DNA of 64,000 nt from Planctomycetaceae bacterium. Its GTDB lineage: Bacteria > Planctomycetota > Planctomycetia > Pirellulales > Pirellulaceae. The translations under genes were made by a program, and so were the position numbers. How positions within the stretch are numbered: position 1 is the first letter of the stretch; each line of letters starts with the position of its first letter. This document shows positions 3,702 to 24,719 of the stretch, piece after piece. Below the pieces are notes generated by a model, which did no database searches, had not been told where the DNA came from, and saw only the letters and a program-made list of their open reading frames with translations. The stretch is from positions 1 through 64,000 of the forward strand of contig JAAYDI010000211.1 of assembly GCA_012729315.1 (NCBI GenBank), in the 5' to 3' direction.

Positions 3702-3981
3702 GCTCGGCCTCATTCACGTCGTCTATCACGCCCTGGATCTCGTCGGCCGTCATCGGTCCGTCAATGTACGGCCAGGTCACGCGCACGTCCCGCCCAACCT
3801 GCAGCATCGCATGGGCACCGGATCTCAGGTCGTCGCGTAAGTCGCCCCACGGTTCGTCATGCCACAGTACCCACCATTCCCACAGCTGGGCCGCAGTCAG
3901 CCGCTCCAACAAGTGATCAGGATGCAGGACCCCCATGCACCGGCACAGCAGGAAGCAGAACCGGTACAGGGGGCTGGTCAG
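3667..3981 (-). CDS. Frameshifted C-terminal part of GT tail chaperone (T domain)
   Basis: This frame is open from the slippery site at 3981-3987. After a -1 shift it reads LTSPLYRFCFLLCRC, then MGVLHPDHLLERLTAAQLWEWW and DEPWGDLRDDLRSG. The LTA-x-Q-x-x-EW...EP-G-x-R-D pattern matches the minor tail protein T family. The 45 bases from C-3981 to the ATG at 3936 are exactly 15 codons, so the shift joins the frames cleanly. The full GT product would be 207 residues. The ATG at 3936 is probably not the real start. GT normally acts as an assembly chaperone bound to the tape measure. Confidence 0.75.
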   Translation of the reverse strand: MTSPLYRFCFLLCRCMGVLHPDHLLERLTAAQLWEWWVLWHDEPWGDLRDDLRSGAHAMLQVGRDVRVTWPYIDGPMTADEIQGVIDDVNEAEHGNRCENIHCD

Positions 3982-4289
3982 TTTTTTTCCGTCTCCTCAA
4001 CCAATAGGCCGTTAATCTCCAGCGCACGTCGCCCGACCGTTTTCAGTGTATCCACAGATATGTCCAACCACTCGTCGGCTGTCGCCTCGTGGCTCACGAC
4101 AGACGCGGCCAGCACCGCGGCGTAGAACCGCAGCGCTTCTGGGGTGTCGACACTCTCTCCGTGCAGGTTTCCGAATTCGCCGGAGAGTGTCGCCAACTGC
4201 CGTGCGCTGATAGGCCGAAACACGATATCCGCGTCCCACCGGTCATAGTGCCAGGTCACGGTCGGCCGGTCCATGTCTGCGAGACTCAT
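3978..4289 (-). CDS. Tail assembly chaperone G-like
   Basis: 103 residues, coupled to the tail tube gene (ATGA overlap at 4286-4289). Size and position, between tail tube and tape measure, match lambda gpG-type chaperones, and it ends in the slippery run GAA AAA AAC TGA that allows the -1 shift into the T frame. The sequence is acidic and helical at the end (WLDISVDTLKTVGRRALEINGLLVEE). Most ribosomes should make G alone and a minority GT. Confidence 0.7.
   Translation of the reverse strand: MSLADMDRPTVTWHYDRWDADIVFRPISARQLATLSGEFGNLHGESVDTPEALRFYAAVLAASVVSHEATADEWLDISVDTLKTVGRRALEINGLLVEETEKN
3981..3987 (-). promoter_or_regulatory. -1 programmed frameshift slippery heptamer
   Basis: On the minus strand the heptamer is A-AAA-AAC in the G frame, directly followed by the TGA stop. 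It fits the canonical X-XXY-YYZ rule. The -1 frame then continues open into the T domain. Confidence 0.75.
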
Positions 4290-4717
4290 GCGACGGTATC
4301 CTCTATGTCTCCGGTGCGCACGACACGCACCTGGCGTGTTACTCGGCCGTTGGCGTCAAAACCTGTCGGCACGATCGCCAAGACGCGGCCTTTGAACACC
4401 TTGGTCCAGGTACTGGTAGCGCTGTACCGCAGCGTGATTTTCCAGTTCGCTTCGTTGCCGCTGGAATACAGCGCGTCGATCGCGTCGTCCACAGCGTCAT
4501 CGGGGTCGTGGAAGCCCTCAAAAACAAATTCAGATATCTGCTCGATGCCTGGTACCGCCTGTGCGCTGTTATCCTCCATCGCAGTGACGTCAATGCTCGA
4601 TCGCTCCTGCGGAGGTGGCGTGATCTGCACGGTCGCCCCCACGTCCTGCCAGGCTGTCCCTCCGGCCGGATCAACGGACACTTTCGCGCCTCGCCCGACC
4701 GCACGTTTCTTTGCCAT
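4286..4717 (-). CDS. Major tail tube protein
   Basis: 143 residues. It starts MAKKRAVGRGAKVSV and has the layout of lambda gpV-like tail tube proteins: an early beta strand, a loop with ERSSIDVTAMED, then ISEFVFEGFHDPDDAVDDAIDALYSSG (the common long helix after a strand), and a C-terminal strand pair WKITLRYS...KGRVLAIVPTG. It sits upstream of the G/GT chaperones, as in other siphophages. Confidence 0.75.
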   Translation of the reverse strand: MAKKRAVGRGAKVSVDPAGGTAWQDVGATVQITPPPQERSSIDVTAMEDNSAQAVPGIEQISEFVFEGFHDPDDAVDDAIDALYSSGNEANWKITLRYSATSTWTKVFKGRVLAIVPTGFDANGRVTRQVRVVRTGDIEDTVA

Positions 4718-6704: not shown

Positions 6705-7345
6705 TACAACGCACTCCAGGTCAGGCGCCTGATTTCGTTCTGCCAACACCTCTCGACGCCTTCTGCGTCGGCCATGGTCCCCAGCTCGCGCCCGCGCGCG
6801 TAAAGGTAGGCCGCCTTGACAAGCACCGCGTTGACACTCTCCGGGGGCAACTGTGCGACGAGGTCTCCGTAGCCGCAGCGATACGACACCTCGACGGCGT
6901 TTGGTCGCGTGTCCAGCGACGGGCTGGTAATCGTCGCACCTTCCGCCAGCACGACCCGCGCAGGTTCTGTTAGCACGTCGACCATGTAATCCGCAGCGCT
7001 CCAGGTCTGCTGCACGGAGTCGATGTCGTAATACTTGATCGATGTCACGGACACGACAGGCGCCCGTGCCAGCTGCAGCATATTGGCCCAGTCCCACGGC
7101 CAGACGTCAAACGCTTCCACGACGGTTCCTGTCAGCAGCAATCGCCGGCTGTCATCCTCGAGCGCCCTAGTGGCGACGTCGAGGAACCGCAACAGCAAAT
7201 CATCTTCGGCATTCCCCGATACACGCAGGTGATCTCGGAATGTGTCCAGCAGCTGCGCACTTGCGCTCGCGCGCGTCAATGTAACAGTGCGCGGTATGGT
7301 GGCTTGCTGACTGCGCGACCAGGCGTTCTGCGGGTATCGGGGCAT
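6704..7345 (-). CDS. Head-tail connector protein (gp6-like)
   Basis: 213 residues from the ATG at 7345, with GAGGT upstream; a GTG three codons earlier is possible. LLLRFLDVATRALEDDSRRLL, WPWDWANMLQLARAPVVSVTSIKYYD and the terminal PPESVNAVLVKAAYLYARGRE match phiE125-gp8/HK97-gp6-type connectors: two helices, a beta strand pair around 'P-V-V-S-V-x-S-I-K-Y-Y-D', and a final helix. The protein would form a ring below the portal. Confidence 0.75.
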   Translation of the reverse strand: MPRYPQNAWSRSQQATIPRTVTLTRASASAQLLDTFRDHLRVSGNAEDDLLLRFLDVATRALEDDSRRLLLTGTVVEAFDVWPWDWANMLQLARAPVVSVTSIKYYDIDSVQQTWSAADYMVDVLTEPARVVLAEGATITSPSLDTRPNAVEVSYRCGYGDLVAQLPPESVNAVLVKAAYLYARGRELGTMADAEGVERCWQNEIRRLTWSAL

Positions 7346-7360
7346 GGCCTGCACCTCACA

Positions 7361-7849
7361 TCAGTCTATGATCGCGGACCTGTCCAGGGTCGGTGCGTAC
7401 CGCGGTGCGTGCAGGATGTAGACCACACTCAGCACCATGTTGGCAGCATTGGCCGTACCAACACCCACGCAATCAAACCCGTTGTCCATGTCCAGGTCGT
7501 CGGCATCGATCTCAATGACATAGAGCGCGTTCTTGTTGTTGGTCGTCAGCGTCGTGAAGGTACTGGACGCTACTGCAATTTCCACGAGCGTGTCACTTGC
7601 GTCCGTGTCCATGTTCGCCCACATTCGGGAAAACGCCAGCGTCCGCGCGTCCGTGCCGCCCACAGCGGTCGCCTCCTTGAGCGTGATCGCCGATCCAGTG
7701 ACCGTGTTGCCGTTGTCTACAGCAATGATCACCGTGCATTTCTGGTAACCCTTCATGCAGACCAAATCGGGAATCGATGCGTTGGGGGTGATCGGCGCCA
7801 GGCCCATCACTACCTTTGCTTTGTTCAATAGCGGCAGAAACCGTTCCAT
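7361..7849 (-). CDS. Virion structural protein, likely head decoration
   Basis: 162 residues: LVCMKGYQKCTVIIAVDNGNTVTGSAITLKEATAVGGTDARTLAF, then NALYVIEIDADDLDMDNGFDCVGVG and ANMVLSVVYILHAPRY. These are regular beta strands ending in a conserved-looking 'VVYILHAPRY' stretch. Position directly after the major capsid gene suggests a capsid decoration or stabilising protein. The 94 bases between it and the capsid gene hold no gene. Confidence 0.6.
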   Translation of the reverse strand: MERFLPLLNKAKVVMGLAPITPNASIPDLVCMKGYQKCTVIIAVDNGNTVTGSAITLKEATAVGGTDARTLAFSRMWANMDTDASDTLVEIAVASSTFTTLTTNNKNALYVIEIDADDLDMDNGFDCVGVGTANAANMVLSVVYILHAPRYAPTLDRSAIID

Positions 7850-17020: not shown

Positions 17021-17401
17021 TTATCCGCTCGATCTCGGCACAGTGGCGATCTCCCGTGGTCCGCCGCCATGCAGTCTGCAGTGCGCGATGGCACTGCTCA
17101 TCTCGTTGGCCGCGTCACAGATCGATTGGGCCGCCGACAGCATCTTCTCCATGACGACAGAGTTAGTCTGTAGGGAGTCTATCATCTTCGTGCGGATGAA
17201 GTCCTCAAGCTGGTTGATGCGCGTGTTGGCGTCTTTCTCGCGCTCGCGTGCCTCGGTCATTGTCTTTCGAATGAGATAACCGAGTGTCCCGAATGAGGCT
17301 AGCACGATCGTGACGAACAGCATGACGACCCAGCCTTCTGCCGATGCCGCTTTGAGTGACTCATCGACACCCGGGATCTGCGCGATCAAATGTAGCACCA
17401 T
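17021..17401 (-). CDS. Single-TM protein with cytoplasmic coiled coil, holin-like candidate
   Basis: 126 residues. One hydrophobic segment at about residues 24-44 (WVVMLFVTIVLASFGTLGYLI) is followed by a long charged helix (KTMTEAREREKDANTRINQLEDFIRTKMIDSLQ). A strong G-rich ribosome binding site precedes the ATG. Its place beside the peptidase gene, at the end of the lysis-like block, fits a holin or spanin-like protein, but one TM plus coiled coil is not diagnostic. Confidence 0.5.
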   Translation of the reverse strand: MVLHLIAQIPGVDESLKAASAEGWVVMLFVTIVLASFGTLGYLIRKTMTEAREREKDANTRINQLEDFIRTKMIDSLQTNSVVMEKMLSAAQSICDAANEMSSAIAHCRLHGGGPREIATVPRSSG

Positions 17402-17752: not shown

Positions 17753-18550
17753 TCACGTGTCCACGTGTCTGGTCGCCATCACACCGTACAGTTCGTCGGG
17801 CACGCCCCGCGAACCGCCCAAACGAATCAGCCCGTCTGCGTGGCTATTCCAGTGGATCGTCGCGACGTTATTCGGCTGCGACTCATCCCAGTCCATGCCG
17901 ACACAAGCCAGCGCGTGGTGCCACCAGCCAAACGCCTCGTATCCAGCGCGTCCGGTCCGTAGGATCGACAGCAGTTGTCGCAGCATAGTGATTTCGTCGG
18001 GCTTCCGCGTGTCCCACCACTCGGTCGGCGCGTACTGCAGCGCATCATCTTGCCAACCAGCCTTGAAGCGGCTTCTGTTGAGCGTGTACTCCGGCACATA
18101 CTCAACCGATGCAATGCCAGCTTGTCTCGCCCCTGCAATGGCGCGATCGCAGTAGTAGCCGCTGTTGCGCCAGTTCACCAACCAACCGAGCGAAAACGGC
18201 GACAGGCGAACCGCTGGCTTACCCTCCGCCGCACGGCAGCTCATCACCGCCGCCGTCAATCCATAGGCCCAGCAAAAACCGTAGCCGTCCTGATCCCACC
18301 CTGCATCCATCACCCCAGAGCTGTCGAGGTGGTACATCGGGAAGATTTTTTTCTCGTGGCAGAACGCGATGATTTCTTTCGCGTCCGCCCAGTCGGCGAG
18401 CACGTCCGGGTAGTCCTCCATCGGCCGCAGGCCCATGCTGACCGCCTCGGGACCGCCGTATACCGTCTGACGCGGATACCACTGGGGTGTACCATCCTCG
18501 GTCGCCGGACGTCGCAGGAGCTTGTGGCAGTTGTCGGCCGTGTAGATCAT
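17753..18550 (-). CDS. Papain-like cysteine peptidase (C1 fold)
   Basis: 265 residues. All catalytic elements of the papain family are present: Gln-87 six residues before Cys-93 in DQDGYGFCWAYG; His-212 in HHALACVGMDWDE; Asn-235 in IHWNSHADG; and the terminal GLIRLGGSRGVPDELYGVMATR, matching the usual G-x-x-R-x-x-R-G...YGVMA end. There is no signal peptide. It is coupled by ATGA to the secreted protein upstream and followed by the holin-like gene. It may be a lysis enzyme acting on wall proteins or cross-links, or a host-takeover protease; neither is shown. Confidence 0.8.
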   Translation of the reverse strand: MIYTADNCHKLLRRPATEDGTPQWYPRQTVYGGPEAVSMGLRPMEDYPDVLADWADAKEIIAFCHEKKIFPMYHLDSSGVMDAGWDQDGYGFCWAYGLTAAVMSCRAAEGKPAVRLSPFSLGWLVNWRNSGYYCDRAIAGARQAGIASVEYVPEYTLNRSRFKAGWQDDALQYAPTEWWDTRKPDEITMLRQLLSILRTGRAGYEAFGWWHHALACVGMDWDESQPNNVATIHWNSHADGLIRLGGSRGVPDELYGVMATRHVDT

Positions 18551-19227
18551 GGCCGAGCCTCCTGGAGCAGCTGCAGCAGCTCAGCAGCACTGGCGGGCAA
18601 AGGGAAGTCCTGCACGGCGCCGCCTCCAATCGGTGCGATGGCGACACGCGGGAGTGGGTCGCCTGAGATTGCCGCCCAGAAGGCGTCGTACTTTCCACCG
18701 GCCGACACCTGACGGCAGACGGTGCCGTCGCAGACAGTGGTTGTTGGCCTGTCCTTGTCCCAGACTCCAAGTAGCTTGTGGCCTGATGCTTCAAGTGTCT
18801 TGCGGAACGTCAGGCTACTTGTGATCTCCAGCTGCGCCAGCGGCATACTGTCGAGATCGCCAGACTCAACGAAAATCACAACTTGCCATCTCGCGCCAGG
18901 GTCGGGGTCAGGCTGCGGGCCAGGCTTCGCAGCCCCGAGCGTCACGCGCTGCACCACAGGCTGCGCATCACCAGGTGGAAAGTATATCACCGCGTAGTCG
19001 CCCGCCTCACCCTCCCACTGCACCGTCTTGCCTCCGTCCAGGAGGATCGGCCGCACCGGGAGAAAGCCAGCCGTAAACAGGATCCATTTCCCCGGCTCCG
19101 GCGCAGACGCACTACCAAGTGATTTCCCCTGCGTGGGCAGCACGGATATCTGCGCCGGAGCCTGGAGGGTGAGGAGTAGGGTGGCGGAGAAAGCGAGGAG
19201 AATCGGGAATCGCCGTAAGAATGTCAT
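18547..19227 (-). CDS. Secreted protein: beta domain plus thioredoxin-fold-like domain
   Basis: 226 residues from the ATG at 19227 (GGAGGGT upstream; an in-frame upstream ATG lacks it). Residues 1-26 are a Sec signal peptide (FLRRFPILLAFSATLLLTLQAPAQ). About 30-105 look like a beta sandwich (EPGKWILFTAG...GDYAVIYFPPG...VVQRVTLG). The rest has strand VVIFVES, helix, strand HKLLGVWD, helix YDAFWAAI, then LPRVAIAPIGGGAVQDFPLP and a last helix, resembling a thioredoxin fold without the CxxC. Its stop overlaps the peptidase start, implying joint function. Confidence 0.6.
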   Translation of the reverse strand: MTFLRRFPILLAFSATLLLTLQAPAQISVLPTQGKSLGSASAPEPGKWILFTAGFLPVRPILLDGGKTVQWEGEAGDYAVIYFPPGDAQPVVQRVTLGAAKPGPQPDPDPGARWQVVIFVESGDLDSMPLAQLEITSSLTFRKTLEASGHKLLGVWDKDRPTTTVCDGTVCRQVSAGGKYDAFWAAISGDPLPRVAIAPIGGGAVQDFPLPASAAELLQLLQEARP

Positions 19228-24630: not shown

Positions 24631-24633
24631 AAG

Positions 24634-24719
<86 letters not shown>

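Follow-up and report, generated by a model that had tools for sequence, protein, structure and literature searches.

A coupled phage gene pair for a papain-type peptidase and an exported partner of probable thioredoxin fold, with a possible role in egress from planctomycetes

Introduction

Pseudomurein endoisopeptidases (family C71), carried by phages of methanogens, are viral cysteine peptidases that open a wall other than murein, and to our knowledge no comparable exported partner accompanies them; they differ from the enzyme described here in peptidase family and in wall, the two being likened by description and not by sequence. Papain-fold phage lysins are already known in the form of CHAP and NlpC/P60 enzymes (PMC10318531). 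These endolysins share with the present peptidase the papain superfamily, a phage origin, and an expected role in release, but they belong to other families, cut peptidoglycan, and lack an exported thioredoxin-fold partner. The papains proper (MEROPS C1, PF00112), among which cathepsin K, ananain, and ficin gave profile matches, have the same order of Gln, Cys, His, and Asn, but the phage peptidase has no recognized prodomain or signal peptide and is encoded beside an exported protein with a probable thioredoxin fold. The predicted fold of the C-terminal domain of that partner resembles ERp27 and the b domains of PDI, which likewise have no redox motif and in the known cases bind; these, however, are eukaryotic and unrelated to it in sequence. 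In phages, the combination of a C1 papain with an exported thioredoxin-fold partner was absent from the PHROGs, from annotated phage records, and from the open literature searched.

The composition of the planctomycete wall has been disputed for decades. Early chemistry, as cited in PMC2754498, described a protein sacculus with disulfide bonds; several cultured planctomycetes have lysozyme-sensitive peptidoglycan sacculi (PMC4432640); and in Planctopirus limnophila the peptidoglycan genes are mostly dispensable (PMC10632474). Phage exit from planctomycetes is apparently undescribed in the open literature searched. The gene pair analyzed here may be how phages break open planctomycetes that apparently lack parts of the usual cell-wall machinery.

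Gene pair in a planctomycete prophage

The window, that is, the whole stretch of 64,000 nucleotides analyzed (contig JAAYDI010000211.1 of the Planctomycetaceae assembly GCA_012729315.1), holds integrase, terminase, portal, head protease, capsid, and tape measure genes around the gene pair, and the prophage setting given in the preliminary description is therefore borne out. Since the window starts at the contig start (window base 1 is contig base 1), the left end of the prophage lies outside the sequence. A tRNA-Leu gene adjoins the integrase (window 24633-24719, minus strand) and is a likely attachment site. The genes follow one another on the minus strand in the order partner, peptidase, small protein with a C-terminal hydrophobic helix, and single-TM protein (Table 1). 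The partner stop and the peptidase start share an ATGA, an overlap of 4 nt that had been described earlier and was found again here together with both genes; plausible ribosome-binding sequences, GGAGGG and AGGAGG, precede the two ATGs, the latter being that of the peptidase, and the third gene begins 1 nt past the peptidase stop.

Table 1. Features of the gene pair and its downstream neighbors in the window
Feature	Coordinates	Strand	Evidence
Exported partner gene, 226 aa	18547..19227	(-)	Sequence; fold prediction and structure search; upstream of peptidase in ~70 loci
Predicted thioredoxin-fold domain of partner, residues 109-226	18550..18903	(-)	Block pLDDT 61-87; Z ~5; family alignment
Predicted papain-family (C1) cysteine peptidase, 265 aa	17753..18550	(-)	Catalytic residues; family profiles
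Oxyanion-hole Gln87 codon	18290..18292	(-)	Sequence; Q in 70/73 alignment rows
Catalytic Cys93 codon	18272..18274	(-)	Sequence; C in 74/74 alignment rows
Catalytic His212 codon	17915..17917	(-)	Sequence; H in 73/73 alignment rows
Catalytic Asn235 codon	17846..17848	(-)	Sequence; N in 69/73 alignment rows
Small protein, 106 aa, C-terminal hydrophobic helix	17431..17751	(-)	Read by eye; no family
Single-TM coiled-coil membrane protein	17021..17401	(-)	Weak profile matches: holin E 0.033, spanin 0.17

A papain-type peptidase

Judged by its sequence and by the profiles of its relatives, the downstream gene of the pair encodes a genuine papain-family (C1) peptidase, and catalytic activity is predicted. 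Gln87, Cys93, His212, and Asn235 stand in papain order, so that the C1-type enzyme with an intact residue set that had been proposed from the letters of the DNA is upheld. The window sequence on its own gave no meaningful match in Pfam or PHROG, none among annotated phage records, and none in the PDB; as an endolysin candidate, it matched no known murein-hydrolase domain in Pfam or PHROG. Profiles built from the relatives matched cathepsin K, ananain, and ficin in the PDB (E ~2e-5), and three relatives passed the cut-off for Pfam Peptidase_C1 (PF00112): L082 (7.6e-9), L086 (2.5e-6), and L072 (4.2e-4). The conservation counts in Table 1 cover 73 loci, with the alignment rows that cover each site as denominators (74 for Cys and 73 for the others); the retention of Cys, His, Asn, and Gln across the peptidase family is the pattern expected from selection for an active enzyme. 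The structure model of the peptidase (AlphaFold2, four-sequence alignment) had a pLDDT of 37. Together, the peptidases found here form a large family of papain-type enzymes in phages that has so far gone without annotation.

An exported partner with a probable thioredoxin fold

The partner N-terminus reads MTFLRRFPILLAFSATLLLTLQAPA followed by Q and contains a clear Sec signal peptide (about residues 1 to 25), after which fold prediction places a beta-rich N-terminal part of low confidence, a proline-rich linker, and a C-terminal thioredoxin-like domain (block pLDDT ~61 to 87). The predicted secondary structure of this domain runs in thioredoxin-fold order (beta-alpha-beta ... beta-beta-alpha), with a Pro (LP) before strand 3, a feature shared with thioredoxins. 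In the structure search, most PDB matches were thioredoxin-fold proteins at a Z of ~5, including thioredoxins, PDI domains, and ERp27, and many had no redox role; Foldseek returned nothing below 1e-3 for the domain, its E values being above 0.2. The window partner has no CxxC, because its only cysteines are C166 and C171, both in an insertion, and the motif is missing from most partners in the family. Relatives of the partner are Sec-exported, probable lipoproteins (L069, L070, and L082), or TM-anchored (L003, L009, and L085). The thioredoxin fold of the domain has moderate support. Of the preliminary description, which had seen a secreted thioredoxin-like protein without CxxC and had asked whether the fold might be unrelated to thioredoxin, the Sec signal and the missing motif stand, and the fold is favored by the kind of structures matched but held to a moderate grade by the Z, the pLDDT, and the Foldseek result.

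Spread and linkage of the pair

A gene for the exported partner stands directly before that of the peptidase, mostly overlapping or nearly touching it, in ~70 phage or prophage loci, which range from prophages of planctomycetes and contigs of uncultured viruses to one huge phage of 595 kb. The two genes are therefore not a pairing peculiar to this locus, as would have spoken against the coupled unit first described; peptidase and partner form a conserved, coupled phage module in fixed order. A second copy lies in the genome of the window itself, on contig 50 (C50) of G000, the two peptidases being 40% identical. Viral contigs with the pair include L003, L005, L006, and L039 to L042, and the pair is also present in L091 and L133. 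In a class-wide survey, peptidase relatives occurred in 25 of 397 genomes; the partner was directly upstream in the 28 survey pairs measured, at gaps of −4 to +156 nt (mostly −4 to +3), with the ATGA overlap usual among them. A further scan for the peptidase yielded 43 viral contigs. Among 43 loci of viruses or phages in which a peptidase was scored, 41 had the partner upstream, the huge phage included, with the partner lying within 300 nt in 36 and at 447 to 790 nt in 5; of the two loci without it, one encodes a distantly related C1 protein (Burkholderia phage FLC9) and the other starts at a contig end. No partner was found beside 10 more generic C1 peptidases of the phylum. On the peptidase tree (n = 42), paired peptidases group together: the paired label required 2 changes versus 9.9 when shuffled, and none of 500 shuffles was as low.

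Phages of different build carry the pair, the window phage being of the tape-measure type and those of C50, G577, and G578 of the giant-internal-protein type. The C50 prophage (L021 and L022) is podovirus-like, with an internal protein of 1,149 aa and the same cassette. In the huge phage, which is uncultured (L145; LR756511.1, 478774-485505), the two genes overlap by 4 nt, as they do in the window. In genus g44 (L035 and L068), the pair-bearing prophage has the same RNA-recognition-motif gene nearby in both G044 and G629, and the peptidases are close; this prophage is vertically inherited and is perhaps a domesticated or gene-transfer-agent-like element. At L084 (5449-7059, plus strand), partner and peptidase are read as one 536-aa ORF with a signal peptide, either a fusion or an assembly or sequencing error. 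As a single ORF it would export the peptidase too, and it was weighed lightly because the assembly is poor (65% complete) and a sequencing error is possible. Two other candidate fusions were rejected: G729:C478 turned out to consist of two separate genes side by side, and the first part of the 569-aa ORF of L081 was out-of-frame sequence.

Neighboring genes in the cassettes

Small single-TM genes were concentrated near the pair: within 2.5 kb they made up 22 of the 78 small genes, and farther away 1 of 56 (p 3e-5); 3 of the 22 encode exported proteins and not membrane proteins. Family matches of these genes were weak in general, as in the window (Table 1). A neighbor gene in L159 matched spanin at 4.9e-4, and among the matches listed at least one neighbor gene of another pair copy matched a PHROG holin at 3.3e-9. 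The window TM protein is 79% identical to its C50 counterpart, against the 40% of the peptidases, a sign of module exchange; no viral relatives of the window TM gene were found. Small proteins resembling the product of the third window gene adjoin the pair in other phages, as judged by eye. Exported thioredoxins with CxxC were encoded in the cassettes of L009, L010, L075, L079, L173, L175, and L186, and exported trypsin-thioredoxin fusions in those of L008, L069, and L070. The fusions at L008 (339-1472, minus strand) and L069 (7589-8611, plus strand) combine a trypsin-like protease with a thioredoxin domain (CGPC or CEPC) and adjoin the pair.

Murein hydrolases and the host wall

Pfam scans covered ~150 proteins, drawn from the window phage, C50, three viral contigs, and the prophages of G387 and G044, and recognized no lysozyme, amidase, CHAP, NlpC/P60, M23, or similar enzyme. 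The window part of the prophage, whose left end lies beyond the contig start, yielded no murein hydrolase, in keeping with the earlier remark that neither a muramidase nor an amidase was visible there; no endolysin was found in the better covered sister prophage G000:C50 or in three related viral contigs. In the wider set, no lysin families appeared near the pair among the matches listed (25 of the 39 Pfam and 25 of the 48 PHROG families). Because many of the phage proteins belong to no family, an unrecognized lysin is possible, and the result of these scans is an absence of recognized murein-hydrolase families, short of proof that an endolysin is absent.

In the host (G000; assembly 96.65% complete), neither the PBP transpeptidase (D,D-transpeptidase, PF00905) nor MurG was detected, and the same held for G602; in G044 and G629, PBP was undetected and MurG was reduced to a C-terminal trace; G387 and G831 had both. 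The searches were positive in the controls, E. coli and others. Hosts of the f21 family have PBPs and MurG and carry the pair too, so that its occurrence cannot be put down to missing peptidoglycan, and a restriction of the pair to hosts without peptidoglycan was ruled out. The DUF1559 family marks the host as a planctomycete, with 26 copies in the genome of the window and none in 14 control genomes.

Egress and its alternatives

The reading that we favor, at a rough probability of 0.48, is that the pair is a phage module for egress (lysis) whose targets are envelope proteins. The linkage of the genes is observed; from the cassette-like neighbors, the exchange between phage builds, the lack of a recognized endolysin, and the odd host wall, we infer that the pair serves in lysis. 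The substrate, the timing, and a direct contact between peptidase and partner are likewise inferred. Sec would export the partner to the periplasm, where it would stand on its proline-rich arm, and in some relatives it would be tethered to the membrane as a lipoprotein or through a TM helix. The peptidase, which has no signal peptide, would be synthesized in the cytoplasm and released late, probably when one or more of the neighboring small membrane proteins permeabilize the inner membrane; once freed, it would join the partner and cut structural envelope proteins or peptide cross-links, and the cell would open. In the cassettes that encode them, the exported thioredoxins with CxxC and the trypsin-thioredoxin fusions would break disulfides and maintain the thiol of the peptidase in its reduced form.

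A more specific proposal, that the C1 protease, aided by exported proteins that have a thioredoxin fold or are redox-active, takes apart a protein envelope linked by disulfides where the host has no canonical peptidoglycan, and so replaces a murein endolysin, is tentative and less likely than not. Several points count against egress: the f21 hosts with their PBPs and MurG, the lysozyme-sensitive sacculi of planctomycetes (PMC4432640), the weak holin and spanin matches of the window TM protein, the lack of CxxC in most partners, the low pLDDT (37) of the peptidase model, and the truncation of the window prophage at the contig start, with an unrecognized lysin possible. If protein-directed lysis is true, it would be a new kind of lysis system. 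A module found in ~70 loci, in varied phage builds, and in some hosts without detectable PBPs and MurG is a handle on both phage exit and the wall, and the substrate of the peptidase would reveal what holds planctomycete cells together.

An unlikely alternative, and the one that fares best, is that the pair is a virion-associated entry enzyme, packaged or displayed and cutting surface proteins during infection instead of at exit. Podovirus-like relatives have the pair after the giant internal virion protein and before fiber-like genes, and the L079 pair sits among head and tail genes, positions that would suit such a role. The exported partner, however, bears a Sec signal, and structural virion proteins are normally without one; the pair also moves between unrelated virion types, and in L009 and L068 it directly precedes the gene for terminase and is accompanied by small TM genes, a usual lysis position. 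Slightly less probable again is a murein endopeptidase in the guise of a C1 papain, with the stem or cross-link peptides of peptidoglycan, not proteins, as its target. Papain-fold CHAP and NlpC/P60 enzymes do this in many phages (PMC10318531), and the f21 hosts have PBPs and MurG, but the closest profile relatives of the peptidase are protein-cleaving C1 papains and not CHAP or NlpC enzymes, and PBP and MurG are undetectable in the window host and G602, as are PBPs and a full MurG in G044 and G629.

That the prophage uses the pair for surface change or exclusion, altering or trimming host envelope proteins in lysogeny or infection, is improbable: export of the partner and the vertical maintenance of the prophages in genus g44 (L009, L010, and L068) would fit, but the pair occurs in many unrelated viral contigs and in a huge phage, the peptidase has no signal peptide, and the pair clusters with small membrane genes. 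Least probable is a toxin and its guard, the peptidase attacking host proteins and the partner restraining it or shielding the envelope, for which strict pairing, a partner gene that comes first, translational coupling, and a peptidase without a prodomain can be cited, but an export signal on the partner alone would keep the two in separate compartments until the membrane opens, and the single ORF of L084 would join them.

Additional genes of the cassettes

A protein encoded by C50 (32695-33633) was considered as a TIM-barrel glycosidase and dropped, since neither family nor structure searches matched. The gene at L003 (6305-7159, plus strand) encodes GDEDCAVA and a later His and is maybe another cysteine peptidase, with no family or PDB match. 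A single cassette, that of L005, encodes two further exported proteins, one metalloprotease-like with HEYGH (3799-4554, plus strand) and one CAP-domain-like (6766-7362, plus strand).
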